Source of the DNA: a virus
Strand: one strand, 5' to 3'
DNA length: 39,562 nt
IMG/VR virus record: IMGVR_UViG_3300021961_000233
Coordinates: 1 to 39,562 of that record
The notes under the pieces were generated by a model, which saw nothing but the letters and a program-made list of their open reading frames with translations, was not told the DNA's origin and searched no databases. Shown piece by piece: positions 8,267-39,111 of this stretch (its first letter is position 1; every line of letters begins with the position of its first letter). The translations under genes and the position numbers were made by a program.

Positions 8267-8306
8267 AAAAATAATTCTTGACATAAAATGTGTGCTTTGA
8301 TATAAT
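8267..8306 (+). promoter_or_regulatory. Promoter P1, AAATAATTC-boxed sigma70 type
   Basis: TTGACA at 8278-8283, a spacer of exactly 17, and TATAAT at 8301-8306, with TGA just before the -10 (extended -10). AAAAATAATTC sits directly against the -35 at 8267-8277. It lies in the only sizeable gap of the plus block and drives the adhesin genes from 8328. The same composite motif occurs five more times, all on the minus strand. Confidence 0.92.
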
Positions 8307-8327
8307 TATCAGCATAGGAGAATATAA

Positions 8328-8666
8328 ATGGCCGCAGGGACTTATAATTTACAAATAGACCAGGGTTCTGATTTCGCAGTTAACTTAGCCCTGAAAGAAG
8401 GCGGAGTAGCCACAGACTTGACTAGCTACTCTGCTCGTGCACAGATGCGCTCGACAAAAGACGCTGCGACTGCGGCGGCTACATTTACTTGCACCATTAT
8501 GAATCCTACTGCTGGCACTCTACAAATGAGCCTTCCAAATGCAACTTCAGCAGCTCTTGATGCCGGATTATACTATTATGATTTAGAGATTTATACATCC
8601 GGTGATGGAATTGTGACACGAATTTTGGAAGGAACTGTTACAATTGATCAGAATGTAACACGATAA
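8328..8666 (+). CDS. Small virion structural protein, baseplate/fibre type
   Basis: A 112-residue, beta-rich protein with AGGAG before ATG 8328; first gene after promoter P1. The pattern QGSDFAVNLALKEGG, then TSYSARAQMRST, then GLYYYDLEIYTSGDGIVTRILEGTVTI resembles N-terminal baseplate or fibre-attachment domains (BppU-like) found widely in phages. It lacks signal peptide and membrane segments. Its TAA overlaps the next ATG (TAATG), so the two are translationally coupled. Probably an adaptor holding fibres to the tail; the family match is from memory of the pattern. Confidence 0.55.
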   Translation: MAAGTYNLQIDQGSDFAVNLALKEGGVATDLTSYSARAQMRSTKDAATAAATFTCTIMNPTAGTLQMSLPNATSAALDAGLYYYDLEIYTSGDGIVTRILEGTVTIDQNVTR

Positions 8667-9046
8667 TGGAAGTAACAATAACGGTTGATGAAACTGCTGT
8701 CACGGTAACAGAAGATACTACGACAATAAACATCACACCTACGACATATGAAGTATCTATTGAAGCGGTTGCGACATTGATTCCAACTGCTCTTTCTATG
8801 TCTGTTACTCCCTACAAAACGATTACTAAAACAAACGTACAACAAGCATTAGAAGAATTAGCTGATCAAAATTTTCGCGGCACTACTACTCCTACTGGAA
8901 GCACATTAGAAGTAGGAGATACTTGGTACGATACAGCAAATAATATATTTTACGTATACCGAACAGTTAGTGGAATTACAGACTGGTATCCATTACTCAA
9001 CACCGATGTAGGTGAGGAGGATAATCTGGACGGAGGAGCCTTTTAA
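8666..9046 (+). CDS. Probable tail fibre adaptor, LDGGxF C-terminus
   Basis: 126 residues, start overlapping the previous stop. The first ~40 residues are Thr/Val-rich beta sequence, followed by TNVQQALEELADQNFRG and then LEVGDTWYDTANNIFYVYR with a DWYPLL end, a pattern common in marine-phage structural proteins. The protein ends in NLDGGAF; the next protein ends in TLDGGTF, suggesting a shared terminal motif. No catalytic residues are visible. Likely a minor structural component of the adhesin complex. Confidence 0.55.
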   Translation: MEVTITVDETAVTVTEDTTTINITPTTYEVSIEAVATLIPTALSMSVTPYKTITKTNVQQALEELADQNFRGTTTPTGSTLEVGDTWYDTANNIFYVYRTVSGITDWYPLLNTDVGEEDNLDGGAF

Positions 9047-9065
9047 GGCTATTTAGGGGCAAATA

Positions 9066-10337
9066 ATGGCTCAAACGATTCAAATTAAACGCAGTAGCTC
9101 CACAGCTACTCCTACTTCACTACAAAATGGTGAATTAGCGTATTCGGCAACGAGTAATAAGCTATTTATTGGTCGCCCTGGTGGTGGTACTGGTGATGTA
9201 GATGCGATTGGCGGAAAAGTATATGTAGATATGCTTGACCATACCGCTGGTACTCTTACCGCAAGCAGTGCAATAGTTGTAGACTCAAATAGTAAGATTG
9301 ATAACTTTTTAGTAGATAATCTTCAGTTTGATGGTAATGCAATTACTTCTACAAATACAAATGGTACTATTACCATTACTCCAAATGGTACTGGCGATCT
9401 TGTTCTTGATGGACTCAATTGGCCTCAAGCAGACGGTAGCGCAAATCAATACTTAAAAACTGATGGTTCAGGTCAGCTTTCTTGGGGTACTGTAACTTCT
9501 AGCTTTACAATTTCTGACGGCTCTGCCACAGATACTTTTAATACTGGTGGTACTCTTACTTTTGCCGCTGGTACCGATATAAGCACCACTGTAACTAATG
9601 ATACAGTAACAATTGCATACACTGGTAGTGATGTAACTCTTTCAGGTGCTTATAATTATCTTACTCTTAGTGGTCAGCAGATTACTCTTGGTCAGATAGA
9701 CCTTACTACTGACGTTACTGGTTCATTGCCAAATGCTAATTTAGCAAATAGTTCTTTTACTCTTGGCAGCACTTCTATTTCCCTTGGTAGTACAACTACT
9801 ACTGTTGCTGGACTTACCTCTGTAACTTCTACAGATTTTGTTGGTGATGTTTCTCAAGCAAATGGCTCTGGTACTGATGTTAGTGGTACTGATTTAATTA
9901 TAAAAGCTGGTGCGGGTACAGGTACTGGCGCAGGCGGTAAAATTTACTTTAGAACTGCAGATGGTGCAGGTTCTACTGGCTCAACCGTAAACAGTCATGC
10001 AAATGCTCTTATTTTGAATGACGACATGGTCGCAACCTTTGGTGCGGGTGTTGTTATTACTGGCGACCTGACTGTAAATGGTACAACTACTACTGTAAAC
10101 TCAAATACTGTAGCTGTTGGTGATAACATTCTTGTCCTAAATAGCGACGAGACTGGTACTCCCTCTCAGAACGCTGGTATCGAAATCGAACGCGGTACAT
10201 CCTCAAATGTAGCTCTGCGTTGGAATGAAACTAGCGATAAGTGGGAAACTACTATTGACGGTACAAATTATTATGTGCTTCTCAATGCTAACAATTTTAC
10301 AACTGAAATTACCACACTCGATGGCGGTACATTCTAA
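9066..10337 (+). CDS. Tail fibre-like structural protein
   Basis: 423 residues with an AGGGG site before ATG 9066. The N-terminus MAQTIQIKRSSSTATPTSL then NGELAYSATSNKLFIG is the anchoring pattern of many phage fibres and is shared with the next gene. The centre has beta-helix-like repeats rich in Gly, Ser and Thr (TNGTITITPNGTGDLVLDG, then FVGDVSQANGSGTDVSG). A fibre motif with GDLTVNGTTTTVNSN and AGIEIERG precedes a final globular part with RWNETSDKWETTIDG. The end, TLDGGTF, matches the upstream protein's tail. This is probably a trimeric fibre shaft; no enzyme domain is visible. Confidence 0.7.
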   Translation: MAQTIQIKRSSSTATPTSLQNGELAYSATSNKLFIGRPGGGTGDVDAIGGKVYVDMLDHTAGTLTASSAIVVDSNSKIDNFLVDNLQFDGNAITSTNTNGTITITPNGTGDLVLDGLNWPQADGSANQYLKTDGSGQLSWGTVTSSFTISDGSATDTFNTGGTLTFAAGTDISTTVTNDTVTIAYTGSDVTLSGAYNYLTLSGQQITLGQIDLTTDVTGSLPNANLANSSFTLGSTSISLGSTTTTVAGLTSVTSTDFVGDVSQANGSGTDVSGTDLIIKAGAGTGTGAGGKIYFRTADGAGSTGSTVNSHANALILNDDMVATFGAGVVITGDLTVNGTTTTVNSNTVAVGDNILVLNSDETGTPSQNAGIEIERGTSSNVALRWNETSDKWETTIDGTNYYVLLNANNFTTEITTLDGGTF

Positions 10338-10349
10338 ATAGAAACTAAC

Positions 10350-10378
10350 CTCCTGCGTATATACGCAATTTATAGGAG
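10350..10378 (+). promoter_or_regulatory. Hairpin that could mask the ribosome binding site of the next gene
   Basis: In the 47-base gap before ATG 10385, CTCCT (10350-10354) can pair with the Shine-Dalgarno AGGAG (10374-10378). Between them is a perfect GCGTATATACGC palindrome (10355-10366). Folded, the stacked stems would bury the binding site. The fold is inferred by eye and was not computed. Confidence 0.35.
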
Positions 10379-10384
10379 AGCCAA

Positions 10385-11266
10385 ATGGCACAAACGATAA
10401 AACTGAAGCGTTCGGCAACACCGAGCGCGGCTCCTACTACCTCGGATTTGGATCTTGGTGAAGTTGCTATCAATACCTATGATGGCAAAATGTACATCAA
10501 GAAAAATGTCTCGGGTACAGAGAGCATCGTAGAAATTAGTGGAGGAGGCGGAGCGCCTTCTGGTGACTATCTTTACGAGCGTACAACATATACTGCCACT
10601 GCCTCTCAAACAACCTTTCTTGCTGACTACTATGTTGGTTATGTAGATGTCTGGTTGAATGGTATTAAACTGATACCTGGAACTGACTTTACAGCAACAA
10701 ACGGCACATCTATAGTTCTTGCGTCTGGTGCAACCGTAGGAGACTCTGTTGAAATTCTTGCTTGGATTTCTTCAGACTTAAATACTTTAATTGCAGCTGT
10801 AGGATTCGATACTTATACTTATACTGCAACTGCTTCACAAACGACTTTTTCTGGTGCAGATGACAATACTGCAACTTTAGCATATACAGTTGGTCGTGTT
10901 CAAGTATTTATGAATGGTATATTACTTGATGGTGACTCAGAATATACTGCTTCAAATGGTACTTCTATAGTTCTTGCTGCTGCCGCTTCTGTAAATGACA
11001 TAATAAAGATTATCGCATATACAGCAGACACAGCAACTACTCTTGACTTAACAGTACAAGGTAATTTAACAGTTACTGGTACTACAACTGGAATAGAAAC
11101 AGATTTTTATAATTCTGATGCTGTTACAGCAGATAGAACATTAGACTCAACTACACACTACCGTGCAGGTAAGAATACAACTATAAACAGCGGAGTAACT
11201 TTAACAGTTCCTTCAGACAGTCTGCTAGAGATATATCACGATTACGTAGCAGCGAAAGCCTTATAA
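10385..11266 (+). CDS. Tail fibre-like protein with internal duplication
   Basis: 293 residues. The N-terminus MAQTIKLKRSATPSAAPTT, then LGEVAINTYDGKMYIKK, is paralogous to the start of the upstream fibre gene and probably anchors it to the tail. Residues ~69-128 and ~145-212 are an internal repeat: each begins TATASQTTF, contains VxVxxNGI and ends NGTSIVLA followed by a hydrophobic strand. After TVQGNLTVTGTTTG comes a C-terminal beta domain ending SGVTLTVPSDSLLEI, related to the end of the 84-residue protein at 14937-15191. Probably a short receptor-binding fibre. Confidence 0.65.
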   Translation: MAQTIKLKRSATPSAAPTTSDLDLGEVAINTYDGKMYIKKNVSGTESIVEISGGGGAPSGDYLYERTTYTATASQTTFLADYYVGYVDVWLNGIKLIPGTDFTATNGTSIVLASGATVGDSVEILAWISSDLNTLIAAVGFDTYTYTATASQTTFSGADDNTATLAYTVGRVQVFMNGILLDGDSEYTASNGTSIVLAAAASVNDIIKIIAYTADTATTLDLTVQGNLTVTGTTTGIETDFYNSDAVTADRTLDSTTHYRAGKNTTINSGVTLTVPSDSLLEIYHDYVAAKAL

Positions 11267-11276
11267 GGGGAAAACA

Positions 11277-11798
11277 ATGGCATTAAAATTAAACAGTGCA
11301 TCGGGGTCAATTACAATTTCTGCCGAAGACGGAAGCGGAAATGTGGATATTAGTTTTCCTCGTGCGGGCTATCAAGCTTACGACGCAGATACTACAAAGA
11401 ATGACGTAGCGAATACTTTTACTGCAGACCAGACTATTACTGGTGAACTACTTGTAGACAGCTATAACGAAAAGTATAATGCAGTTACGTCATCAACTAA
11501 TGCGACCACAGTGGACTGCGAAACTGGCAACGTGTTTAGTCATACACTTACAGAAAATACTACTTTTACTTTTAGTAACCCTCCTACATCCGGTACAGCC
11601 TACGCAATGGCGGTTAGAATAGTACAAGATGCAAGTGCGAGCGGTTTTACAGTTACATGGCCTGCAGCAGTTGATTGGCCTGCTGCAACCGCCCCAACTC
11701 TTACAGCTACAGCAGATGCTGTAGATTGGTTTGTTTTCACTACTGTTGACGGTGGAACAACTTGGTATGGATTTACTTCAGGACAGGCACTAGCATAA
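11277..11798 (+). CDS. Adhesin cassette small protein, copy A
   Basis: 173 residues with GGGG before ATG 11277. Its sequence is strongly paralogous to 15191-15700, both containing DADTTKNDVANTFTA, HTLTENTTFTFSN, QDASASGFTVTWPAAVDW and DGGTTWYGFT. The fold looks all-beta; the type is frequent in marine-phage fibre regions. Its TAA overlaps the ATG of the large lectin-like protein, so the two are translated together and may form one structure, for instance a shaft or tip carrying the larger adhesin. No catalytic site is visible. Confidence 0.65.
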   Translation: MALKLNSASGSITISAEDGSGNVDISFPRAGYQAYDADTTKNDVANTFTADQTITGELLVDSYNEKYNAVTSSTNATTVDCETGNVFSHTLTENTTFTFSNPPTSGTAYAMAVRIVQDASASGFTVTWPAAVDWPAATAPTLTATADAVDWFVFTTVDGGTTWYGFTSGQALA

Positions 11799-14341
11799 TG
11801 AGTAATTTTGGTAAATTAATGCAACAAGCTGCCGCTGGCTCTGCTGGTGGAGATTTCTATGAGCATACAATAGATAACTCTATTCTATTATCTCATGATA
11901 GCAGTCAATATTTACGTAGATATATGGAAACTAATTCGTCTACTAATACTGATAAGAAAAAAGGTGTAATAAGTTTTTGGTTTAAAAACTGGAAAACTAG
12001 AAGAACAAACCGTACTAATTTATATAATCATATGGATGATGGATATGAGCTGGGGACGATTGAAATAGCAAACAGCACTACTGAAGTTTTAGAAGATTCC
12101 ATCTATATGCAAGATTTTCAGTACGACAATAGAAGCAATTGGAGCGGTAGTAATTATCAGCTGGACGCTGTAGTAGGCATATCTAATAATGCAAGAAGAT
12201 TTAGAGATAGAGCAGGATGGTATCATTATTGTTTTATATGGGATACAACACAAGCATCTGCTACAGATAGAGTAAAAGTTTATATTAATGGTGAATTGCA
12301 AGGATGGACGCACGATACAACTGTATCTTCTCCCAGATTTTCGGGGGTTGCTCAACTTCCTACTCTAAATGAACAATTAAATTATCTTGCTGTAGGTGAA
12401 ACAAGCGGATCGACTTCTTGTAGGCAGTATATAGGAGCATATGGAGATCCCTGGACTTATACTAATCAGTTTGTGTATTCAGATATACAAATGGCAGAAT
12501 TTCAAGCAATTGATGGAACAGCCTATGATATTAGTAAATTTGGAAAGTTAAAAAATGGCATCTGGATTCCAGTAGCCCCTTCTGGAATTTCATATGGAAC
12601 TGCGGGTAGTTATTTAAAATTTAATAATTCAGGTTCTCTTGGTGCAGATAGTAGCGGTAATGGAAATGATTGGACTGTAGTAAACGGAGCAACTCAATTA
12701 AATGATACGCCTACGAATAACTTTGCTACTTTTGATCCAAATTTTCTTGGGACCTTTTATGATGGTGTTGGTACTGTAACTGCACCAAATATTACTGGTA
12801 CAAATGGAAATCTTAATATAGCAGCACCAAATTCGCCGGGAGATGGATGGGGGACATATTCCTACCTTACTCAAGACATTTTGCCGGGAATGAAAACTTA
12901 TGTTGAGTTTTCTAACCTTACAAATGCACAGCTGTGGGTTGTTCGCTCCAGAAATAAGATAGAAAATCCCGGCTCTGGGCTACCCACAGGCCGCATTGGA
13001 ATGTATAGTGGAGGAATTGTTATTGACGGAAGTGCAAGTGGTTCAAGTTCTGGTAGTGCAGTTTCATTTACTTCTTCAGACACAATCGCAGTTGCAGTTG
13101 ATTATGATAACCACACTTCTTACTGGTATAAAAACAATACTCTATTCTGGACAGTAACTAACATGAGTTTTTCTGGGACTACTTATCGAGAACCAGATGG
13201 TTATTGGATAATCTACACTCCCGGCACAAGCGGTGCAACTGGCACAGCTAGAGTAAATACAGGACAAACGGCTTTTACTTATACGCCACCAACTGGGTTT
13301 GAAGGCCTTTCTACTGCAACAAGAACTGAATCTACGTTAAATCCGGCAGGGGCTGAAAATACTTTAGACTATTTTAATGTTGTTACATATACGGGCAACG
13401 GTACAGCTATAGGTAGCGGCGGCAAATCTGTTACTGGTGTTGGATTCCAGCCCGATATGGTATGGACAAAAAACCGGGATGCGGCACAAAGTTGGGCGTG
13501 GATGGACACCCAGATAGGGGCAGGGAAGTATTGGACTCACAACTATACCAGCACGGGCGTTATTACCAATTCAGAATCTTTGTCTAGCATGGATGCAGAT
13601 GGGTTTACCGTGGGTAATCTTGCCAATGTCAATGTAAATGCACAAAATTATATAGCATATTGTTTTAAGAAAAAAGCAGGATTTTTTGATATAGTCGGAT
13701 ACTCAGGTACAGGCTCTGTGCAAAACATAGCGCACGGCTTGGGAGTTGCTCCTAAGATAATTATTGTTAAGCGTGTGACCAACGCCAATACTGCCCCAAG
13801 CTATTTTGATTCTGGGTTCTATAGTGACCCGCAGACAGATTTCATGGGGTTTTTTGACACTAACGCTTTTACCGACGAGAACACTATCTGGAACGATACC
13901 GCACCCACATCTACACAGTTTACGGTTGGTACTAACAGCGGCGTAAATTTGAGCTCAGACACATTTATAGCTTATCTTTTTGCAGAAGTTGAAGGCATGA
14001 CAAAAATGGGATACTACAAAGGAAATAATTCTACTCCTGAAGGCCCATTTGAGTACACAGGATTTAAACCTGCATTTGTTATGGTAAAAAATATTAGTAA
14101 TTCAGGGTACCACTTTGTTGCCGTAGATAATAAAAGAAAAAGAGAAAATTTTAATCCTCAAAATGGATGGTTATATATGAGCGGGTCTGATGCTGAAGTA
14201 TCAAATTCATCCTCTGTAATTGATTTTTATAGCCATGGATTTAAATTAAGAGCAGATAGTAATACTGCAAACGGGGCAGCATTAAGTTACGCTTACATCG
14301 CATTTGCACATAGCCCCTTTAAATATGCAAATGCAGGATAA
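11798..14341 (+). CDS. Large lectin-like adhesin with LamG/SPRY-like and repeat C-terminal domains, copy A
   Basis: 847 residues from ATG 11798, which overlaps the previous stop (TAATG); an in-frame upstream ATG at 11762 lies inside the previous gene and is not favoured. After AAAGSAGGDFYEHTIDNS comes a concanavalin/LamG-like domain (~30-250; VISFWFKNW, WYHYCFIWDTT, VKVYINGEL). A SPRY-like region (~330-500; YVEFSNLT, IAVAVDYDNHTSYWYKNN) follows. The last third has the phage repeat type with GFQPDMVWTKNRD, IAYCFKKKAGFFDIVGY, HGLGVAPKIIIVK and FKPAFVMVKN (DUF7483-like, by recall), ending FKYANAG. Probably binds host polysaccharide. The DNA from about 13400 to 13960 looks richer in G+C than its surroundings, suggesting mosaic exchange. 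Paralogue of 15704-18208. Confidence 0.7.
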   Translation: MSNFGKLMQQAAAGSAGGDFYEHTIDNSILLSHDSSQYLRRYMETNSSTNTDKKKGVISFWFKNWKTRRTNRTNLYNHMDDGYELGTIEIANSTTEVLEDSIYMQDFQYDNRSNWSGSNYQLDAVVGISNNARRFRDRAGWYHYCFIWDTTQASATDRVKVYINGELQGWTHDTTVSSPRFSGVAQLPTLNEQLNYLAVGETSGSTSCRQYIGAYGDPWTYTNQFVYSDIQMAEFQAIDGTAYDISKFGKLKNGIWIPVAPSGISYGTAGSYLKFNNSGSLGADSSGNGNDWTVVNGATQLNDTPTNNFATFDPNFLGTFYDGVGTVTAPNITGTNGNLNIAAPNSPGDGWGTYSYLTQDILPGMKTYVEFSNLTNAQLWVVRSRNKIENPGSGLPTGRIGMYSGGIVIDGSASGSSSGSAVSFTSSDTIAVAVDYDNHTSYWYKNNTLFWTVTNMSFSGTTYREPDGYWIIYTPGTSGATGTARVNTGQTAFTYTPPTGFEGLSTATRTESTLNPAGAENTLDYFNVVTYTGNGTAIGSGGKSVTGVGFQPDMVWTKNRDAAQSWAWMDTQIGAGKYWTHNYTSTGVITNSESLSSMDADGFTVGNLANVNVNAQNYIAYCFKKKAGFFDIVGYSGTGSVQNIAHGLGVAPKIIIVKRVTNANTAPSYFDSGFYSDPQTDFMGFFDTNAFTDENTIWNDTAPTSTQFTVGTNSGVNLSSDTFIAYLFAEVEGMTKMGYYKGNNSTPEGPFEYTGFKPAFVMVKNISNSGYHFVAVDNKRKRENFNPQNGWLYMSGSDAEVSNSSSVIDFYSHGFKLRADSNTANGAALSYAYIAFAHSPFKYANAG

Positions 14342-14355
14342 TCGGAGAAAAAACG

Positions 14356-14937
14356 ATGAGATATTATGATATAACAAACTCACAGGTAAAAAGTGAGAGG
14401 CAGATAGTAAGAGAAAATCCGAATACAAGTTTTGCTCTTCCGTTATCTGCTGCCGCATTAGCGGGATTAAACATGGCAATTCTAAAAGAGGACGTGCGTC
14501 CTTCTTATGATGCGGATACTCAAACAGTAATTGATGGTGATATTGAAGAGCGTTCAGGTTCTTACTATCAGACCTTTACTGTGATTGACCGTTCCGCAGA
14601 AGCAATTGCAAATGACCTGGCAAATAAGAAAGCAAATGTTCGTGCACAGCGCGATGCAAAACTTGCTGCAAGCGATTGGGCAGTTCTTCCTGATTCTGCT
14701 CTAAGTGCAGAAGATAAAACTGTTTACCAGAATTATCGCACTGCTCTTCGCAATGTTCCTGCACAGGAAGGTTTTCCAAACAATGCATTACCAGAAGGTC
14801 CAAACGAATCACCCTATGCTTCATGGACTTATAACTCTACAGATTTTGTGTGGGAAGCTCCTCTTGCAAAACCGGAAGGTGCAATATCTTGGAATGAAGA
14901 AGCATACCAAGAGGATAATACTACAGGCTGGTTCTAA
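14356..14937 (+). CDS. Tail assembly chaperone-like protein
   Basis: 193 residues with CGGAG before ATG 14356. Residues ~95-145 carry the phage tail assembly chaperone pattern: RAQRDAKLAASDW, LPDSALS, then YQNYRTALRNVPAQEGFP. In other phages such proteins are encoded beside fibre genes and help them fold or attach. The C-terminal ~40 residues (SWTYNSTDFVWEAPLAKPEG then SWNEEAYQ) resemble the end of the 121-residue protein at 19286-19651, suggesting a shared module. It lies between the two copies of the adhesin cassette, and its stop overlaps the next ATG. Confidence 0.6.
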   Translation: MRYYDITNSQVKSERQIVRENPNTSFALPLSAAALAGLNMAILKEDVRPSYDADTQTVIDGDIEERSGSYYQTFTVIDRSAEAIANDLANKKANVRAQRDAKLAASDWAVLPDSALSAEDKTVYQNYRTALRNVPAQEGFPNNALPEGPNESPYASWTYNSTDFVWEAPLAKPEGAISWNEEAYQEDNTTGWF

Positions 14938-15700: not shown

Positions 15701-15703
15701 AAA

Positions 15704-18208: not shown

Positions 18209-18217
18209 GAGAACAAA

Positions 18218-19270: not shown

Positions 19271-19285
19271 TAGGAGAAAAATAAA

Positions 19286-19651: not shown

Positions 19652-19689
19652 CATCAAAGATACTACCAAAGTAGTACAGAGCAACCAAC

Positions 19690-20169: not shown

Positions 20170-20170
20170 A

Positions 20171-20193: not shown

Positions 20194-20196
20194 AAG

Positions 20197-21153: not shown

Positions 21154-21154
21154 T

Positions 21155-24195: not shown

Positions 24196-24198
24196 ATA

Positions 24199-26929: not shown

Positions 26930-27558
26930 CCGATATTAAACTCATCTTCAAGGGTTTCAATATCATCTTCACCTGTGGTAGGTGCATTACGCAGCCTGTC
27001 CAACAGTTCTTTTTGGGCATCCGGAGTCGGACGGGGCATTACTTCGTCCATAGACTTCAGGTTTACCAGAACTTCTTTTTCTGAATCAGAAAGAGCACGC
27101 GGCTTGCATTTCAGAGCCTGCAACTGATACTCTACATTGTACGGCAGAGGTCCAGTCTTTACACGCTTGAAACAAATATCCCAGCCAGTGTCAACATCAG
27201 TCGGGTCGCCAAGGTCTTCAGCAGCAGTAAGAATCTGCTCCCAAAGCTTTTTCTTCAGATTAATTACTTTAATCTGACCATTGTCTATGCACTGCATAGC
27301 GTAGCTCCAGCCACACTTCAGGTCGGGATAGAACTCACGAACCCAATCTTTTTCTTTGTTGTTGAAACGCTCTTCGTTTCTATCAAAGGACAAACACTCA
27401 AGAGGAAGATTCTTGTTGTTTTCGCCTGTTACCCAGTAGACGTAACGAGCAAGTACATCACCGACCAGGCGAACTTTGTTGTCGCCGTCGTTGTACTGAT
27501 AAGTAACGATATTGGATTTCTGGGCTTCGCCCTTTGTTTGATTAAATGCTAATGCCAT
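26926..27558 (-). CDS. Single-stranded DNA-binding protein, gp32-like
   Basis: 210 residues. The body (QYNDGDNKVRLVGDVLARYV, LPLECLSFDRNEERFN, KCGWSYAMQCID, GWDICFKRVKTGP) matches the OB-fold SSB of many phages. The last 20 residues are very acidic (GEDDIETLEDEFNIG), the tail by which gp32-type proteins bind polymerase and recombination partners. AGGAG lies eight bases before ATG 27558. The gene looks richer in G+C than its neighbours, compatible with high expression. It sits directly ahead of the SbcD/SbcC genes. No zinc-binding Cys set like that of T4 gp32 is clear. Confidence 0.75.
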   Translation of the reverse strand: MALAFNQTKGEAQKSNIVTYQYNDGDNKVRLVGDVLARYVYWVTGENNKNLPLECLSFDRNEERFNNKEKDWVREFYPDLKCGWSYAMQCIDNGQIKVINLKKKLWEQILTAAEDLGDPTDVDTGWDICFKRVKTGPLPYNVEYQLQALKCKPRALSDSEKEVLVNLKSMDEVMPRPTPDAQKELLDRLRNAPTTGEDDIETLEDEFNIG

Positions 27559-27968
27559 ACTATTTTCTCCTGTGGGACTTCTTCATATAGAAAATGAAGT
27601 TTACCTTCAGAATCTACACTAAGTAGCCTATTGTTGTTTATTTCTTCAAAAATTATCTCATCTTCGGGTAGAAGAAGAGTATCTACAGTAATATCTCCTG
27701 TTGCTAGAAAATTAGCTAAATTTCTAGTTGCAGCAAGAGAAATATACGTTCCGACTTCTCGTTGCGTATATTTATAGGCGTTTTCAAATAGTGTTTTTGG
27801 ATTCACTAAAAAACTTTCGCCTATAAAGTCAAACCCTTTATAAGTATACAAAGGGTCGTACTTATTCTGTGGTATTGTATCGTAAGTCAACATACGCATA
27901 ATATTAAGACACGTATGAAGATTGCCTCTCGATAATCTAAAAACTTTTTTCCAGTTGAATAAGACCAT
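27549..27968 (-). CDS. Conserved-looking small protein, function unknown; start uncertain
   Basis: 139 residues from ATG 27968. Contains NIMRMLTYDTIPQNKYDPLY and YKGFDFIGESFLVNP and ends EEVPQEKIVWH; no family recognised, no membrane segment. The start is a puzzle. Promoter P2 has its -10 at 27970-27975, so a transcript from it would begin near 27963, after this ATG. A start at ATG 27899 would lie on that transcript but is 25 bases from the nearest GAGAGG. The upstream in-frame TTG at 27998 is inside the -35 and can be dismissed. The 3' end overlaps the SSB start. Confidence 0.6.
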   Translation of the reverse strand: MVLFNWKKVFRLSRGNLHTCLNIMRMLTYDTIPQNKYDPLYTYKGFDFIGESFLVNPKTLFENAYKYTQREVGTYISLAATRNLANFLATGDITVDTLLLPEDEIIFEEINNNRLLSVDSEGKLHFLYEEVPQEKIVWH

Positions 27969-27969
27969 T

Positions 27970-28009
27970 ATTATATCAAATATTTTAACTTTTGTCAAGA
28001 ACTATTTTT
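27970..28009 (-). promoter_or_regulatory. Promoter P2, AAATAATTC-boxed sigma70 type
   Basis: Reading leftward: AAAAATAGTTC box (one base different from the family box), TTGACA at 27998-27993, 17-base spacer, TATAAT at 27975-27970, with TGA before the -10. The box abuts the stop codon of the helicase gene at 28010. It should drive the unknown gene, ssb, sbcD, sbcC, resolvase, flap endonuclease and nrdAB, down to the terminator at 20171-20193. Confidence 0.9.
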
Positions 28010-32697: not shown

Positions 32698-33517
32698 ATA
32701 GTTTATTCTCCAAATTTCGTACTTGGGTTTCATTCAGTGCGCCAGGGTCAGTATCACGCATATGAACATTCCTGGCTTCGAGACCAACTTTCTCGCACAG
32801 AAGTTTTATTTCTGCAGCAGCTTTCTGTCCTGCATCGTCTCCGTCAAAGAAAATATCTATGTGGTCTACTCCTTGCATCTTCGCAAGAAGTAGCTTATCT
32901 TCATTGAGGTTTTGAGTGCCAAAACAACACACTGCGTTCGTTAATCCTTTATCATATAAGTTTAATACATCATAAACTCCCTCCACAAGTATTATTTTCC
33001 CTTGACGTGGATTTATTTTAGGATAAAGAGGTAGTCTTACACCTGAGGGTACAAACTTATATTTTGGGTCACCATTCGAGGTATGTCTGCCTTGAAATGC
33101 TACTATATTTCCAGATATATCTCGAATAGGAAACACAATTCTTCCAATAAAATCTCGTTCGCTATTCTGAAAAGCCTCAAACTTTTTATATGTTTCAGGC
33201 TTGATATTTCTCCAGTTACCAATATAAGGTATAGAGTTTGAAGGAAAAGATAAGCCTACACATTCCGCACGTTTCTCAACAATTTTTCTTTTTAATAGTT
33301 CTCTGCGTATCTGTAGTTGACTTACCTTCTCCCCAAACTTATAAAAAATGTTGCCCTTGAATCCACAAGCAAAACAGTTAAATACTCCAGTTACCTGGTC
33401 GATTCTCATGCTTGGATTTTTGTCGTCATGCTCTGGGTTTAAGCACGACACCACAAAGTCCTGCCCTTTTGGGGCAAAGCTAATCTTCTGTTTTGCTAGT
33501 AGTTCTTGGACTGTCAT
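32690..33517 (-). CDS. DNA primase (zinc finger plus TOPRIM)
   Basis: 275 residues. An N-terminal zinc finger uses Cys25, His30, Cys48 and Cys51 (CLNPEHDDKNPSMRID, FNCFACGFKG), as in DnaG and T7 gp4. A middle catalytic core (FIGRIVFPIRDISGNIVAFQ) leads into TOPRIM with Glu179 (LVEGVYD) and Asp225/Asp227 (FFDGDDAG). No helicase part is attached; the DnaB-like helicase is a separate gene upstream. It makes RNA primers for lagging-strand synthesis. ATG 33517 lies inside the preceding 60-residue gene with no clear Shine-Dalgarno site, suggesting coupling; its end overlaps the polymerase start. Confidence 0.92.
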   Translation of the reverse strand: MTVQELLAKQKISFAPKGQDFVVSCLNPEHDDKNPSMRIDQVTGVFNCFACGFKGNIFYKFGEKVSQLQIRRELLKRKIVEKRAECVGLSFPSNSIPYIGNWRNIKPETYKKFEAFQNSERDFIGRIVFPIRDISGNIVAFQGRHTSNGDPKYKFVPSGVRLPLYPKINPRQGKIILVEGVYDVLNLYDKGLTNAVCCFGTQNLNEDKLLLAKMQGVDHIDIFFDGDDAGQKAAAEIKLLCEKVGLEARNVHMRDTDPGALNETQVRNLENKLYA

Positions 33518-33662
33518 TTAAAACTGGTTCTATTCCTAAAAATTTTCTCGCTTCGTTTCTTACTTCTTCTGTTACTGCATGACCAAAATCTTCTGGGTCT
33601 AATAATTTATTTAGAAAAACAACTATATCGTTATCTAACAGTCTATTATTAATCTCAATCAT
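33480..33662 (-). CDS. Small protein of unknown function
   Basis: 60 residues from ATG 33662, with AGG eleven bases before it. It is acidic in the middle (DPEDFGHAVTEEVRNEARKF) with a Thr/Ser-rich end. It overlaps the primase start by 38 bases and begins three bases after the upstream 96-residue gene ends. Position in a tight operon supports it being real; no motif or family is recognised. Confidence 0.5.
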   Translation of the reverse strand: MIEINNRLLDNDIVVFLNKLLDPEDFGHAVTEEVRNEARKFLGIEPVLNDSPRTTSKTED

Positions 33663-33664
33663 AG

Positions 33665-33955
33665 TTACTTACCTATGTGTGTTATATCGTTAGTAGGTAT
33701 AACCTGGTATGCGCCTTTGTTGTATGCTACAGCAACAGGATACTGCTTTGATATTTCCTGCTTGAAAAAACTTATCTCTGCACCCTCAATCTTTTTGTTC
33801 GACATCAAAGATTTGTACTCTGGTGTCGGACGCCTATAAGGCTCACTAGTAGGAACGTAGTCTTCGAACTTACTAGCTGTTCTGCGAGGACGCGGAGGTA
33901 ACTTCTTTCTTTTGCGCGACAATGGGCGATAAGAATTACAAGTATAAACCATCAT
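33665..33955 (-). CDS. Small basic protein of unknown function, first gene after promoter P3
   Basis: 96 residues; two consecutive ATGs at the start with GGAGA nine to twelve bases upstream. The first ~40 residues are very basic and Pro-rich (SRKRKKLPPRPRRTASKF), suggesting nucleic-acid contact. The C-terminal half (QYPVAVAYNKGAYQVIPT) looks like a small beta domain. It is the first gene of the primase-polymerase operon, its leader containing half of a large inverted repeat. Function unknown. Confidence 0.55.
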   Translation of the reverse strand: MMVYTCNSYRPLSRKRKKLPPRPRRTASKFEDYVPTSEPYRRPTPEYKSLMSNKKIEGAEISFFKQEISKQYPVAVAYNKGAYQVIPTNDITHIGK

Positions 33956-33963
33956 AAAAAGAA

Positions 33964-34012
33964 TCTCCAGTTGTCAAAAATATAATATATTATACATTAA
34001 AACAGCTGGAGA
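33964..34012. repeat. Inverted repeat bracketing the -10 of promoter P3
   Basis: TCTCCAGTTGT (33964-33974) and ACAGCTGGAGA (34002-34012) match as inverted arms at 10 of 11 positions, separated by 27 very A+T-rich bases that hold the -10 and the likely transcription start. The left arm also contains the Shine-Dalgarno site of the following gene. It could be a two-site operator or, in read-through RNA, a hairpin hiding that site. Confidence 0.5.
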
Positions 34013-34028
34013 GTCAAGAATTATTTTT
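33989..34028 (-). promoter_or_regulatory. Promoter P3, AAATAATTC-boxed sigma70 type
   Basis: Reading leftward: AAAAATAATTC box at 34028-34018, TTGACT at 34017-34012, 17-base spacer, TATAAT at 33994-33989. The box touches the helicase stop codon. It should drive the 96- and 60-residue genes, primase, polymerase, the unknown gene, PhoH and the UvsW-like helicase. Confidence 0.9.
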
Positions 34029-35380
34029 TATAAATCATCAATGTCTTCATCTGATTTTTGGTCATTATCCTCTCGCTCTTTCGGAGAGAGAACAGATTCT
34101 GGACCAATCTTCAGAGTCTCCCAATCCATCTTTGAAGTAAAAGATTTCATAGCAGCAGACCGCATTTTTACACAGTTGAAGGTGACACACGCATCCTCCT
34201 GCTCCCACGTTTCAAGTGCATAAGCAGCATCTGCTGCGTCAAGTATGCCCTTTGCAAAACGTGCTTCGCCCGTTGCGTCTGTCTGATAAGGAGAGAACAC
34301 AGGTACTTCGTATTCCTGCGCCATAGACTTGAGTGCTTTACTCACTTCAATCTGCTCTGTCCAATCGTATTGACCGCCGCGAGAGGGAAGATTAGAACGC
34401 CTTACTTGATTTAGATAATCCACAATTACAATGCCAGGCTTGATTCTTGCTACTTGTTTATCAAGTGTTGCACGAATCTTTGCTACAGTAAGTCCAGCGT
34501 CATAGACTACATCTAACTGCCGAGTCGGGAGAAGCTCGTGGTTAGATTTTAGACTTGAATGTAACTTGTCAAAGTCTCTGTGGTTATGGTACTCTTTCAG
34601 GCGTTCTTGTCCTTCGGTGTAGCGATTCGCCCACCAAGAGGCAACTTTCTCCCACTCTACAACGCTCAGGTTTTTCATCTTCAGCCTAGAGAATGGTACA
34701 CCCGTTGCGATTGAACAGCAGCGTTGAAGAATAGACCTGCTATCCATTTCAATAGTAAAATAGATTGCAGACTTACCAGAAGCTACCATGTTGTTTGCTA
34801 GATTTGCACAGGTAATTGACTTACCTGCACCACGCCTGCCACCTACTAGAATCATATCTCTCGGAGAGAATTGAATCTCGTAATCGTAGTCGTAGTTCAA
34901 ACCCAGTGCAACATACTTCTGGAGTTCTTCCTCAGATTCCCACAACGGAATACTTTGCATACTCTCGTCTGGGTCTTGAATATCTACTTTTTCTTCTACA
35001 TCAAGAACAATCTGATGAAGTTCGTTTATAGACTCCTCTGCATCATTAAATGCAATAGAGTTGTCTACATACTTTTCGAGAGACGTGAGAATCTCTTTCT
35101 GTGCGTACTCATTCTTTAGATACTGAAGTAGAGCATATGGGTCTAGCTCTAAGTCATTTGCACCTTGAATGGCATAGATTTTCTCTTTTGCCTGAGCATC
35201 GCGTACAGAGTAGTGAAGGTCATCAAATGTAGGCAGATGATGATTCTTTTCATTGTGCTTTGTTATCACATCATAAATGATATGATACTCTTTCGGCAGG
35301 TAATTTTTGCGCGTAAGACTCCATGTATCAGAGTCCTGACACGCAATAACCTGCTTAATGAAAGCACTAGCTAGATTCAA
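34028..35380 (-). CDS. Replicative DNA helicase, DnaB-like
   Basis: 450 residues. The N-terminal ~130 residues are helical (IYDVITKHNEKNHHLPTFDD) as in DnaB N-domains. Residues ~165-420 form the RecA-like motor: Walker A GGRRGAGKS (180-188), AIYFTIEMDSRSILQRC and Walker B GIVIVDYLNQVRR. The start appears to be TTG 35380: GGGAGA lies seven bases upstream, while the nearby ATG and GTG run straight into stops. The gene begins only 27 bases after a strong terminator with no promoter in between, so its expression may depend on read-through. Hexameric unwinding at the fork with the separate primase is the expected role. Confidence 0.9.
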   Translation of the reverse strand: MNLASAFIKQVIACQDSDTWSLTRKNYLPKEYHIIYDVITKHNEKNHHLPTFDDLHYSVRDAQAKEKIYAIQGANDLELDPYALLQYLKNEYAQKEILTSLEKYVDNSIAFNDAEESINELHQIVLDVEEKVDIQDPDESMQSIPLWESEEELQKYVALGLNYDYDYEIQFSPRDMILVGGRRGAGKSITCANLANNMVASGKSAIYFTIEMDSRSILQRCCSIATGVPFSRLKMKNLSVVEWEKVASWWANRYTEGQERLKEYHNHRDFDKLHSSLKSNHELLPTRQLDVVYDAGLTVAKIRATLDKQVARIKPGIVIVDYLNQVRRSNLPSRGGQYDWTEQIEVSKALKSMAQEYEVPVFSPYQTDATGEARFAKGILDAADAAYALETWEQEDACVTFNCVKMRSAAMKSFTSKMDWETLKIGPESVLSPKEREDNDQKSDEDIDDL

Positions 35381-35406
35381 TCACATTTCTCCCGAACGCT
35401 AAAAAA

Positions 35407-35433
35407 CGAGTGCAAAGGGTTACTCTGCACTCG
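35407..35433 (-). terminator. Rho-independent terminator after the four-HTH gene
   Basis: CGAGTGCA (35407-35414) and TGCACTCG (35426-35433) form a perfect 8-bp stem with an 11-base loop. In the leftward direction it is followed by six T (35406-35401). It lies 16 bases past the stop of the HTH-repeat gene and just before the helicase start. Confidence 0.85.
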
Positions 35434-35448
35434 CTCTTGATTTCTAAC

Positions 35449-36174
35449 TTACTGTGCAGCTTTTTCTTTCTTAGCGGCACCATCATAGTCTGATGCAGTC
35501 AGACCACGACGAGTCAGCATGGTTTTAACACCACGAACAGTCTTGCCAATCTGTGTAGCAATTTCTTCTACAGTCATACCGGCAATGTTATCAACGCCTG
35601 CCAAGGGGTCTTCCTTGGTTGCAGACTTGGTTTCCTTCTGGCGAGGAATGGAATCAATCGCACCAGAACGAAGGAGGGAAAGAGCCTTGCCCCTTACAGA
35701 AGCAACGCTACGACCCATGGCATCAGCAATTTCTTCAACGAAAGAGCCGTTGTTTACCATCTGAATGAAGGAGGCTTCCTCATCGTCAGAGTAAGTCTTT
35801 ACAGACTCCTTGACGGGAGCAGGCTTAACATGACCAGTCAGCTCCAGGGAAAGTACCTTACCCTGAATCTGCTTGGCAGTGAAAGCACCGCCTTCAAACA
35901 GCTCAGCAATCTGAGCATAGGTGTAGTTACCGCTGTTATCTTCTACGAAAGTAGCAAGAGTAGCGGCCTGGGCTTCGCTGAAAGCCTTGGTGTTAGATGC
36001 AGAGGCCAGCTCTACATCATAGCCCATCTTGCGCAGCTTGCTAGAAACTGAGCGAGAAGAGGTTTCCAGGTTATCTGCAGCTTCTGCTACAGTAGCCTGA
36101 GATACGGGGAATTCGTCCCCTACGAAAGTTGTGAGCGCAGCAACACGCTCTTCTGTCCACTTTGGAACTGCCAT
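35449..36174 (-). CDS. DNA-binding protein with four HTH-like repeats
   Basis: 241 residues from ATG 36174 (GGAG eight bases upstream); a 12-residue upstream extension lies in the ligase gene and is rejected. Four related helical units are visible at ~5-57, ~63-120, ~132-180 and ~200-235, each with a pattern like VEEIADAMGRSVASVRGKAL or VEEIATQIGKTVRGVKTML, typical of helix-turn-helix or SANT-like domains. The tail is Lys/Ala-rich. G+C appears higher than in neighbours, and a strong terminator follows, both fitting high expression. It occupies a position recalling T5 D5, an abundant DNA-binding regulator (comparison from memory). A role in binding phage DNA and controlling transcription is likely but unproven. 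Confidence 0.7.
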   Translation of the reverse strand: MAVPKWTEERVAALTTFVGDEFPVSQATVAEAADNLETSSRSVSSKLRKMGYDVELASASNTKAFSEAQAATLATFVEDNSGNYTYAQIAELFEGGAFTAKQIQGKVLSLELTGHVKPAPVKESVKTYSDDEEASFIQMVNNGSFVEEIADAMGRSVASVRGKALSLLRSGAIDSIPRQKETKSATKEDPLAGVDNIAGMTVEEIATQIGKTVRGVKTMLTRRGLTASDYDGAAKKEKAAQ

Positions 36175-36175
36175 A

Positions 36176-36922
36176 TTAATTCTCCAATAAGAATTGTTGT
36201 AAGTTATCAACGATGATTACGCCAGATTCTCTGGCTTTTTGTGTTTTTAGTGATTCTATACCACTTTCATTTACTAGAATCGTTACGTCCCTTGTAACGC
36301 TACTCTTTATATTGTAGCCAAAAGCCTCAAGGTCTTTGTACGCATCTGCTTTCGTTTTATAGCTTCTTAACTTACCAGAGATGCAGACAGTTCCTTTGCT
36401 TTTTTGTTCTACTTTTGTAAACTTCCAGTTAAATGGTAATTCCGCATAGTAAGGGTACTCATGTACCACCCACTCTACGAGATTATGAGTAGCTTTTTCT
36501 CCGAGTCCTGCGATTTCACACGTAGTGTGGTTTATATGTTCCACACTAAGTACAGCCTGTGAAATCTTTGCAGCAACAGTTTTTCCAATCAAAGGAATAC
36601 TAAAAGCTGGAAGTAGGTCATTTAGAGTTGCAGACTTTGATTTTTCAATCTCATCATACAGTTTTACTCCAAGTTTTTCAGAGGAAAGTTTTTCACAAAT
36701 TGTCTCACAATCTAAAGCGTATATATCACTAATATCAACAAGACCTAGCTTGTTAATAGTGGATTCGCCTAATCCTTTGATTTTGAGAGTTTTTGCGAAA
36801 TGCTGAATCTTTTTTGTAGACTGCCCTTCACAAAAGGGATTCCTACAATAAAGCAAATAATTGACAACTTCAAGCTCGCTATCACAACACGGACAGTGAG
36901 TAGGGGCTTGAATTTTTGTCAT
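36176..36922 (-). CDS. NAD+-dependent DNA ligase, C-terminal subunit (Zn finger, HhH, BRCT)
   Basis: 248 residues equal to the C-terminal half of bacterial LigA. A four-Cys zinc finger (Cys10, Cys13, Cys26, Cys31; HCPCCDSEL and YCRNPFC) is followed by helix-hairpin-helix repeats (KTLKIKGLGESTINKLGL, PLIGKTVAAKISQ, IAGLGEKATHNLVEW) and a BRCT domain from about residue 175 (GTVCISGKLRSYKTKADAY). It lacks the catalytic lysine, so it must work with the other subunit at 37009-37926. Phage T5 also has a two-gene ligase. ATG 36922 follows promoter P4 by about 30 bases, with AGAGGAAG upstream. Confidence 0.9.
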   Translation of the reverse strand: MTKIQAPTHCPCCDSELEVVNYLLYCRNPFCEGQSTKKIQHFAKTLKIKGLGESTINKLGLVDISDIYALDCETICEKLSSEKLGVKLYDEIEKSKSATLNDLLPAFSIPLIGKTVAAKISQAVLSVEHINHTTCEIAGLGEKATHNLVEWVVHEYPYYAELPFNWKFTKVEQKSKGTVCISGKLRSYKTKADAYKDLEAFGYNIKSSVTRDVTILVNESGIESLKTQKARESGVIIVDNLQQFLLEN

Positions 36923-36950
36923 TTATATCTTCCTCTAAGTTTGAATGTAT

Positions 36951-36990
36951 ATTATACGGGACTCTAAGGTAAAAGTCAAGAATTATTTTT
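36951..36990 (-). promoter_or_regulatory. Promoter P4, AAATAATTC-boxed sigma70 type
   Basis: Reading leftward: AAAAATAATTC box at 36990-36980, TTGACT at 36979-36974, 17-base spacer, TATAAT at 36956-36951. It lies between the two ligase genes, so the C-terminal ligase subunit and the four-HTH gene form a unit ending at the terminator at 35407-35433. Confidence 0.92.
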
Positions 36991-37008
36991 TCAAAGGTCA
37001 TAACTTTC

Positions 37009-37926
37009 TCATACTCGTTTTACTACTCTTGGTATAATTTCGCCGGAACGAATTACCTCGACTTGACATCCTATTTCCAGACCCATTGATTCTATGAAGT
37101 TGGTATTATGCAGAGTAACCCTACTTACAGTTGCTCCACCAATATCAATTGGTTCCAGAATCCCTACAGGACTAATAACCCCGCTTTTGCCAACCTGCCA
37201 TACCACATCCAAGAGTGTTGTAACTACACCGTCTTTTTGTTCTTTTAATGCAAACGCTCCTTTAGGGTGATGTGCGGTTTTACCAGCCTGTAGAAACCCT
37301 GGATAGTCATTTATACGATACACCTTTCCATCTTTTGGAAAAGCATCTGTATCATCTGTATGTACTGTTCTGAATCCTTGAGCATATAGAAGATTCATTT
37401 GGGAAGTCCAAAAAACTTCAGTATTCGGAGCCATGTCATAAGCAAAGAAAGTCAAATCCCTATTTATAAAGTCTGCTATACTTTTTAGATTTAGCGCACC
37501 CGCTGCATAGTTTCTTGCATTAGGAATTGTACTAGGGGCTACAACTTCCCCAGTAATCTGCACTGTACCTTCTATGTTAATTTTATTCGGCACAAGGAAT
37601 CGTACTTTATCAGTTATCAACTGACCACGAACTCCGTCTCCTCGAGTGAGGGCGGCTTTTAGTTTACCGTCATTATAGATGAGCGATATTGCTGCTCCGT
37701 CTAGTTTATCGGTTACTACACATCTGTCTAGAAATGATTTTTCTACTTCATTTATATCAAAGTGCTTCTGTAGAGAATACATTTGATATAAATGAGGTGA
37801 GCCGTTTTTTTCGGTATAACCTACTTTTTCGTAGCCCGAAGCAGACACTAAGGCATCGAACTGGTCATCACTAATGACCGGAGTGCCTTTGTAATACATT
37901 TCACTGTAGTAGTCTAAAATATCCAC
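37009..37926 (-). CDS. NAD+-dependent DNA ligase, N-terminal catalytic subunit
   Basis: 305 residues covering the NAD+-binding Ia domain (YYKGTPVISDDQFDAL), the adenylation domain with catalytic Lys74 in TDKLDG, RGDGVRG, ITGEVVAP and FALKEQKDG, and the OB fold (PVGILEPIDIGGATVSRVTL, GCQVEVIRSGEIIPRV). It ends exactly where the zinc finger would begin. Domain Ia seems shorter than in bacterial LigA. The start is GTG 37926 with AGGAG eleven bases upstream. It joins nicks together with the C-terminal subunit and is expressed from its own promoter P5. Confidence 0.92.
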   Translation of the reverse strand: MDILDYYSEMYYKGTPVISDDQFDALVSASGYEKVGYTEKNGSPHLYQMYSLQKHFDINEVEKSFLDRCVVTDKLDGAAISLIYNDGKLKAALTRGDGVRGQLITDKVRFLVPNKINIEGTVQITGEVVAPSTIPNARNYAAGALNLKSIADFINRDLTFFAYDMAPNTEVFWTSQMNLLYAQGFRTVHTDDTDAFPKDGKVYRINDYPGFLQAGKTAHHPKGAFALKEQKDGVVTTLLDVVWQVGKSGVISPVGILEPIDIGGATVSRVTLHNTNFIESMGLEIGCQVEVIRSGEIIPRVVKRV

Positions 37927-37955
37927 GCGAATGGTTTCTCCTATAATTTATAGAT

Positions 37956-37993
37956 ATTATAGAATATTTTAGGTAATTTGTCAAGAATTATTT
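37956..37993 (-). promoter_or_regulatory. Promoter P5, AAATAATTC-boxed sigma70 type
   Basis: Reading leftward: AAATAATTC box at 37993-37985, TTGACA at 37984-37979, 17-base spacer, TATAAT at 37961-37956. The TAA stop of the PC4-like gene lies inside the box. It drives the catalytic ligase gene. Confidence 0.92.
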
Positions 37994-38287
37994 GTAGATA
38001 TTCTCAATTAAATCTTTGAAGTGTTCTTCAATAATCTCTTTGGTTTCGGCCAATGAAAGTATTTCTACTAAGCCAATGAACAATTCTCTTGAGTTATTAA
38101 AGTCAATCGGAATAGAAATACCTTCTGTACTAGGTTTCCATTCTTCCTCAAAGTCTAAATAATACTTCCGTATACTTAGGTATTCTACTCCACGAAATGT
38201 TGATATTGTGAGACGTACTTGATGACCTCTCTCCCCATCTTCATGTATAACTCTTTCATACACTTCGGGGCTTTCATGTAATTCCAT
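37988..38287 (-). CDS. PC4/YdbC-like ssDNA-binding protein
   Basis: 99 residues from ATG 38287 (GGAG seven bases upstream); the longer in-frame form lies inside the previous gene and is rejected. Residues ~22-70 follow the PC4 core closely: beta strands VRLTISTFRGVEYLSIRKYY, then the EEWKPSTEGISIPIDF turn, typical of PC4/YdbC (EWKPxKKGISL). A helix follows (LIEE region). PC4-fold proteins bind single-stranded or melted DNA and modulate transcription, replication or repair. It sits just before the ligase gene. Match judged by eye. Confidence 0.65.
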   Translation of the reverse strand: MELHESPEVYERVIHEDGERGHQVRLTISTFRGVEYLSIRKYYLDFEEEWKPSTEGISIPIDFNNSRELFIGLVEILSLAETKEIIEEHFKDLIENIYK

Positions 38288-38289
38288 TA

Positions 38290-38556
38290 TTAATCTCCAT
38301 TCTTTAGAATAGAGGATAACGGGACTACACTTGTTATGTGCTGAGGTTTCAGTAGTCGATATGAGTCCGTATCCCAACAAAAAAGTAGTAGCGTATCATC
38401 TGTTTCCTTTGCTCTACTTGTTTTCTGCTGAATATACGGAGTGCTAAAGTCAAGAGTACAAACATTGTACTTTAGCTTTTTTGAATTTTCACTTCTATAG
38501 GTAATAACTGCATCACCGTAATTAGTTACTAATTCTTTAAGTTCTTCTTTCTTCAC
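38290..38556 (-). CDS. Small protein, possibly SH3-like beta barrel
   Basis: 88 residues starting at GTG 38556 with AAGGAGA four bases upstream, and ending two bases before the PC4-like start. The pattern GDAVITYRSENSKKLKYNV-CTLDF followed by a variable loop and LLLFCWDTDSYRLLKPQHI resembles small phage proteins annotated as SH3 beta-barrel fold (VTFxKKDGTxRxMxCTL, then WDxdxxxWRxF). The family assignment is tentative. Function unknown. A terminator precedes it and no good promoter is visible in its 75-base leader. Confidence 0.5.
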   Translation of the reverse strand: MKKEELKELVTNYGDAVITYRSENSKKLKYNVCTLDFSTPYIQQKTSRAKETDDTLLLFCWDTDSYRLLKPQHITSVVPLSSILKNGD

Positions 38557-38632
38557 GGTCTCTCCTTGAATTGCAGATTAGCAAACTTTTTTGCATTACT
38601 GTCTGTCGAAGGTTAAACGTGTGAATGTAGAA

Positions 38633-38663
38633 AAACACTGGAGGTCATGACTCTCCAGTGTTT
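38633..38663 (-). terminator. Rho-independent terminator after the 118-residue gene
   Basis: AAACACTGGAG (38633-38643) and CTCCAGTGTTT (38653-38663) form a perfect 11-bp stem with a nine-base loop; the leftward transcript continues with TTTTT. It closes the single-gene unit started by P6. The rest of the gap (38557-38632) shows only a weak GCAAACTTTTTTGC hairpin and no clear promoter. Confidence 0.88.
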
Positions 38664-38679
38664 AGCGGTTAGAACTAAA

Positions 38680-39036
38680 TTACTTATTCAGTGCAGTGAT
38701 GACTGAAGTGAAGTAAACTGCTGCTTTGCCAGTCAATTTGCTGACAATGTCCTCGTCTACTTCTTGTCCTGCATCCGATAATGCAGCAGACAGTGCCTCG
38801 CAAGCGGCAGCTTTAGATACGCGTGCTGTTCCAGTTCCGCCTGAAGAAGTTGATTTAGCTGCTGGTGTTTTCTTAACGTAAACGCCAGCTTTTGTAAGAA
38901 TCATCCGAACGCCGTTGGGGCTTTCTTCGTATTCTTCGGCAATAGCTTTCACTATTTCCATTGAAGTTTCAGGTGTCGGGTCTGAATCTTCATATGCAGC
39001 CACCACAGCTGCTTTCTTGTCGTCGTCCCAAGCCAC
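38680..39036 (-). CDS. Small DNA-binding-like protein in its own transcription unit
   Basis: 118 residues, ATG 39036 with AGGAGA upstream. The N-terminal ~55 residues (WDDDKKAAVVAAYEDSDPTP, AIAEEYEESPNGVRMILTKA, GVYVKK) look like a SANT/HTH unit related in style to repeats of the 241-residue protein at 35449. A Thr/Ser/Gly linker follows, then an Ala-rich helical part (KAAACEALSAALSDAGQEVD). It is flanked by promoter P6 and a strong terminator, so it is a one-gene unit. G+C seems higher than surroundings. A phage chromatin-like or regulatory protein is likely, not shown. Confidence 0.65.
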   Translation of the reverse strand: MAWDDDKKAAVVAAYEDSDPTPETSMEIVKAIAEEYEESPNGVRMILTKAGVYVKKTPAAKSTSSGGTGTARVSKAAACEALSAALSDAGQEVDEDIVSKLTGKAAVYFTSVITALNK

Positions 39037-39070
39037 GATATTATCTCCTATCGTTCAGTTTTAAAAATAT

Positions 39071-39111
39071 ATTATATATGAATTTTAACATGAAAGTCAA
39101 GAATTATTTTT
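39071..39111 (-). promoter_or_regulatory. Promoter P6, AAATAATTC-boxed sigma70 type
   Basis: Reading leftward: AAAAATAATTC box at 39111-39101, TTGACT at 39100-39095, 18-base spacer, TATAAT at 39076-39071. The box overlaps the stop codon of the upstream gene. It drives the 118-residue gene. It is the only member with an 18-base spacer. Confidence 0.88.

Follow-up and report, generated by a model that had tools for sequence, protein, structure and literature searches.

A strictly conserved putative promoter of the T5 type in a group of uncultured T5-like phages

Phage T5 transcribes all of its gene classes with the sigma70 polymerase of its host; its early and late promoters differ mainly in the discriminator, which is ATATT in the early type, the promoters P-G25 and P-J5 are late in vivo, and the early-to-late switch with the host sigma70 polymerase is stated as not understood (PMC7472727). 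Here we describe six sites in the virus record IMGVR_UViG_3300021961_000233, each of which sets a near-invariant A/T-rich box directly against the -35 hexamer of a sigma70-type core. The stretch analyzed, called the window below, is the complete 39.6-kb record (39,562 nucleotides) and, by its gene content, comes from a T5-like phage whose genome it covers in part. To judge by the sequences of the window and its relatives, the sites represent a very tightly conserved, strong-looking promoter that is used many times over in a large group of uncultured T5-like phages.

The six sites and their conservation

All six sites lie where the initial annotation had placed them and on the strands that it gave, with TTGAC(A/T), TATAAT, and the box against the -35 (Table 1); the spacer is 17 nt at five sites and 18 nt at 39071-39111. 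The box reads exactly AAATAATTCTTGAC at five sites and AAATAGTTCTTGAC at the sixth. Six perfect TTGACW-N17/18-TATAAT cores are present in the window, against a mean of 0.055 in 200 first-order shuffles, and AAATARTTC stands directly against the -35 in 6/6 of them; the composite, AAATARTTCTTGAC, occurs six times in the window and never in the 200 first-order shuffled windows. When up to 2 mismatches were allowed, the box was matched 8 times, compared with 1.0 expected and a maximum of 4 in 100 shuffles. Because the spacers and flanks of the six sites are unrelated, the likeness is limited to the promoter elements. All six sites occupy gaps between co-directional genes, which the initial annotation read as operon boundaries. 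Contact with the preceding stop codon, which had been described for most of them, holds at five: at four, the first base of the box is 0-3 nt away from the final base of the preceding stop codon, and at site b (37956-37995) the box itself includes the preceding stop codon. At site c (36951-36990) it does not hold, as the box begins 19 nt past the LigA stop.

Table 1. Boxed promoter-like sites of the window and the two genes considered as candidate regulators
Feature	Coordinates	Strand	Box	-35	Spacer	-10	Next base(s)	Context
Site f	8267..8306	+	AAAAATAATTC	TTGACA	N17	TATAAT	T	Precedes tail-fibre-assembly-like gene 8328-8666; slot kept in relatives
Site e	27970..28009	-	AAAAATAGTTC	TTGACA	N17	TATAAT	A	Between D10-type helicase and gene 27549-27998
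Site d	33989..34028	-	AAAAATAATTC	TTGACT	N17	TATAAT	ATATT	After DnaB-like helicase
Site c	36951..36990	-	AAAAATAATTC	TTGACT	N17	TATAAT	A	LigA-LigB gap
Site b	37956..37995	-	ACAAATAATTC (one base off)	TTGACA	N17	TATAAT	A	Before LigA
Site a	39071..39111	-	AAAAATAATTC	TTGACT	N18	TATAAT	ATATT	Before gene 38680-39036
D5-like DNA-binding protein	35449..36174	-						Four tandem helix-turn-helix units; candidate box reader
PC4/p15-like single-domain protein	37988..38380	-						Pfam PC4 (E 3.4e-11); start codon uncertain; second candidate regulator

When viral contigs were scanned with the composite, at least 120 stretches had it, and 83 of the 120 listed encode homologues of window genes. As an unbiased set, 156 further loci (1.5 Mb) were picked by protein homology to D5 and D10 and not by the motif; they hold 405 exact TTGAC/TATAAT cores, or 160 once sites at least 80% alike are removed. 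With TATAAT numbered -12 to -7 and a 17-nt spacer, the box falls at -46 to -36, and the 144 deduplicated sites with that spacer give the consensus AAAAATARTTC-TTGACW-N17-TATAAT-AT. The conserved element is thus the 11-mer AAAAATARTTC (about -46 to -36), longer than the 9-mer noted at first; the odd base of the sixth window site falls at a position that is A or G lineage-wide. Box positions are 76-97% conserved, with A and G pooled at the variable one, and most spacer and far-upstream positions carry less than 0.5 bit. For a promoter this would be unusually strict, with upstream element, -35, -10, and discriminator edge all fixed.

That the box is more than a flank of the hexamers had been claimed from the window, and the relatives bear this out, since box and hexamers are kept together in them: 180 of the 181 perfect 11-mers in the 156 loci abut TTGACW, and TATAAT follows at promoter distance in 178 of those 180. 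A reversed-sequence control yielded 22 boxes, 0 of them followed by a core, and cores with one mismatch seldom have a box. The register from A-tract to -35 is fixed in 298/298 core-perfect sites having an A-tract and is kept also with an 18-nt spacer. The box and the two hexamers therefore form a single conserved unit.

The sites recur in the same gene gaps, or slots, of the relatives. The LigA-LigB slot (site c) is the most conserved, with a site in 71/71 relative loci and 26 of 27 deduplicated sites perfect; the slot before gene 38680-39036 (site a) has one in 48/48 loci, the D10-SSB slot (site e) in 101 of the 103 relatives in which D10 and SSB are adjacent, the slot before LigA (site b) in 60/66 loci, and the DnaB-primase slot (site d) in 53/74. 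Four other gene junctions checked in the relatives had no site. Each long T5-like relative has some 8-18 sites, and 0 with a reversed-pattern control. In three of these relatives, with proteins mostly ~45-85% identical, the window slots recur with few gaps, including the tail slot before the fibre-assembly gene, and extra virion-side slots appear between TerL and portal and between pb6 and T5p139. Beside the pb6-like major tail gene the -10 is often TATACT with a perfect box, as seen in three long relatives. As for pre-early promoters, no boxed site stands clearly ahead of the dmp homologues near the ends of two contigs. The motif is a handy marker with which to recognize and orient contigs of this widespread uncultured group.

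PHROG matches on the minus strand of the window include LigA and LigB (a split NAD ligase), the D5-like regulator, a DnaB-like helicase, primase, DNA polymerase, PhoH, a D10-type helicase, SSB, SbcD, SbcC, RusA, an exonuclease, and ribonucleotide reductase; those on the plus strand are tail, central-fibre, and tail-fibre genes. The T5 gene set matches this one, and T5, too, has its tail genes on the strand opposite to the D2-D15 replication block. Identity to the nearest cultured relatives is about 30-50% for D10, D5, and DnaB, and megablast of the first 25 kb of the window against phage records gave no match.

The base after the -10 hexamer

Sites of the lineage were classed by the nearest same-strand gene and then reduced to those less than 75% alike. 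On the replication side, A directly follows TATAAT in 135/137 sites and G in 2/137; on the virion side, T follows in 21/30 and A in 9/30, and four of those nine have TATACT as -10 (Fisher P ~1e-17, or ~2e-11 at a 65% cut). The independent evidence for this split is less than P implies, because sites of the same slot share ancestry and three virion-side slots were identified. The window alone has A at its five replication sites and T at its tail site. The initial annotation had supposed that the box might define one expression class; this idea is not supported, as the upstream half (box, -35, and spacing) is common to replication and virion genes, and it is in the base after TATAAT that the two classes part. 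It is probably this downstream edge of the promoter that carries the timing information, with A marking replication genes and T, or a TATACT -10, marking virion genes. With so many natural promoters alike in their upstream half yet different, by gene class, in one base after the -10, natural variation marks that base as one of interest.

What may read the box

It is likely that the six sites are T5-type promoters for a host sigma70-type RNA polymerase, a near-perfect stack that would include a proximal UP element and an extended -35. AAAAATA (about -46 to -40) would act as the proximal UP element, contacted by the C-terminal domain of the alpha subunit (alpha-CTD); the TTC abutting the -35 would provide an extended -35 contact, and TTGACW, the 17-18 nt, and TATAAT would be contacts of sigma, with transcription presumably starting at these sites. 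Elements stacked in this way would let the phage beat host promoters, and one upstream half would serve both replication and virion genes, with timing coming from the base after TATAAT. No RNA polymerase or sigma gene turned up when the window was scanned against PHROG, and T5 relies on the host sigma70 polymerase; a host-type promoter at its maximum is therefore favored. The same reading is supported by the all-or-none composite and its fixed register in the relatives, by the T5 promoters of like layout, by the split in the base after TATAAT, and by identical composites that stand singly in bacterial contigs without T5-like genes. The E. coli consensus also favors TC directly against the -35. 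PMC2801614, citing Estrem 1999, gives AAAAAARNR (-46 to -38) as the proximal alpha-CTD subsite. AAAAATART agrees with it at 6/8 specified positions, with A5 (-46 to -42) in register; the UP-element-like contact suggested in the initial annotation is the best reading of the box because A5 begins at -46, exactly where that subsite starts.

Several points weigh against this reading. The box differs from that subsite in its T at -41 and -38, which do not fit the consensus, and in the fixed TTC that runs up to the -35. The RTTC linker is stricter than in usual UP elements, which are normally degenerate, and the fixing of 11 bases could mean a reader of higher specificity. The three identified virion-side slots leave the A/T split with fewer independent cases than sequences.

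A more specific reader would most plausibly be a phage regulator, likeliest the D5-like or the PC4-like protein, which would bind the box and, placed directly against sigma at the -35, activate or shut off these promoters. We consider this rather unlikely, although the strictness of the box, beyond that of an ordinary UP element, and its single register speak for it, as does the joint variation of linker and -35 among T5-like lineages. D5 is kept throughout the lineage, and its predicted four separate three-helix units could span extended DNA; in the fold prediction these are joined by flexible linkers (pTM 0.30), and single units alone are reliable. On the other side, stand-alone boxes away from a -35 were not found in the 156 loci (180/181 lie in promoters, in one register only), box promoters serve replication as well as virion genes, and T5 and Vibrio phages, with linkers unlike this one, have D5 orthologues in which the helix-turn-helix layout is the same. 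Part of D5 matches Pfam Sigma70_r4_2 (E 1.7e-9), a further point for this regulator. D5 as a sigma-like factor was nevertheless rejected: the match spans 25 residues of one helix-turn-helix unit, and the alignment is that of generic tandem units. A PDB sequence search with D5 found nothing. The start of D5 was set at the ATG of the conserved MAVPKW; the listed open reading frame begins at an upstream TTG. T5 also has a PC4-like gene (T5p113) just upstream of ligA, as does the window.

More doubtful again is a scheme that joins the two observations, in which a phage protein such as the four-unit D5 would recognize the box next to sigma at every promoter of the lineage, and the first base behind TATAAT (A or T) would set early or late. 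If it were true, D5 and the A/T base would make up a two-part code and supply the early-to-late switch that is missing for T5-like phages, whose polymerase stays that of the host.

That the box is the site of a host regulator, a cellular activator or nucleoid protein that binds A/T-rich DNA of this kind and is exploited by the phage, appears very improbable. Identical composites do exist in bacterial contigs: the strict composite was found in at least 118 stretches of bacterial genome contigs, mostly as single Clostridia sites, and eight of the contigs have T5-like genes. Since it occurs in such contigs without T5-like genes, the composite can be a cellular promoter-like site. These matches, however, come mostly one per contig and in Clostridia, far from marine metagenome settings, and the box comes with a perfect core and not by itself. 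The bacterial genome scan was also discarded as a pointer to the host, its matches being mostly unrelated single Clostridia promoters together with the eight T5-like contigs in metagenome bins. Those eight sit in bins of Halieaceae, Aureispira, Parcubacteria, Bacteroidetes, and others, and they do not name a host, because at least some must be mis-binned. Ruminococcus-like genomes have a recurring cellular site with the same box, AAAAATAATTCTTGACAA[AT]CAATAT..AAGATATTATAATACAT, seen at nine loci and others. A 204-kb virus record carries a separate series of sites of this sort, one being AAAATAAAGC set against TTGACAAA and followed by TATAAT, which suggests that other large phages may have lineage-specific boxed promoters too.

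We give next to no credence to a single mobile promoter cassette whose recent copying, and not selection, would explain why the sites are alike: the long relatives do hold many copies (8-18 per genome), but the copies have unrelated spacers and flanks around a fixed box and fixed hexamers, no flanks common to different slots were seen, and orthologous slots vary in spacer over the same range while the box is unchanged. Equally hard to credit is that the box is a side effect of A-rich gene ends and their stop codons. It does touch or contain a stop codon at 5/6 sites, but in no slot is it better conserved than in LigA-LigB, where it lies 19 nt past the stop in the window; junctions that have no promoter lack the box too, and there is no excess of boxes at gene ends that have no -35.

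Comparison with T5 and Vibrio phage promoters

To the knowledge of the initial annotation, this composite motif had not been described in any system. Its architecture, however, is that of T5 promoters, several of which lie in corresponding gaps, with other linker and -35 letters. We compared the window with the annotated promoters of the T5 record AY692264, 26 of which are of the early type. The T5 early promoters (P-H207, P-N25, P-K28a, P-D/E33, and others) share with the window sites an in-register A-tract, a short conserved linker, a 17-nt spacer, and TATAAT, and their A-starting, AT-rich discriminator is like that of the replication-side sites of the window. Counted relative to the -35 hexamer, A occupies -10 to -7 in 21-25 of the 26 and is followed by [AT]-T-K-Y-A-K; A comes directly after TATAAT in 24/26. 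The full ATATT discriminator is present in two of the five replication-side sites of the window, and all six sites have the T5-type core (sigma70, 17 +/- 1 spacer, TATAAT). The two differ in their letters: the T5 upstream half is AAAA[AT]TKYAK followed by TTGCTW, whereas the window lineage has a TARTTC linker with TTGACA or TTGACT and is more strictly conserved. TTGCTT or TTGCTA forms the -35 in 20/26 T5 early promoters and in none of the window sites, which are filed as a variant and not a member of the T5-type early promoter because their -35 is TTGACA or TTGACT.

Gaps common to T5 promoters and the window lineage are those upstream of ligA (where the T5 promoter is putative), between ligA and ligB (T5 P-K28a/b), and after D10. 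The T5 promoter nearest to the box is the late P-G25, with AAAAATTTC against TTGATA, which lies among tail genes, like site f. It has A after TATAAT, whereas the virion-side sites of the window lineage mostly have T, and the T signature is therefore one of the window lineage, which P-G25 does not share. The late promoter P-J5 combines TTGACA with TATACT, and TATACT is also frequent in the pb6-side slot of the window lineage. The gene gaps of P-G25 and P-J5 differ from the virion-side gaps of that lineage.

Among the matches listed by blastn with a 46-nt consensus, full-length matches of about 80-85% were to T5-like coliphages and Vibrio phages, and no exact full-length composite was found in cultured phages. 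The T5-like Vibrio phages D254 and KIT04 resemble the window lineage in having an A/T-rich upstream part, a -35, TATAAT, and an A-starting discriminator in the replication region. Each has its own flavor, TTAAAA-TTTTTC against TTGCCT in D254 and AAAAATTCAC against TTGCTA in KIT04, read by eye from a handful of sites each. The architecture is thus common to the family, with linker and -35 letters particular to each lineage; the window sites are therefore a variant within the T5 promoter type and no new kind. What is new here is a lineage-specific and very strict variant of the T5 promoter, together with a split between A and T that follows the two gene classes.

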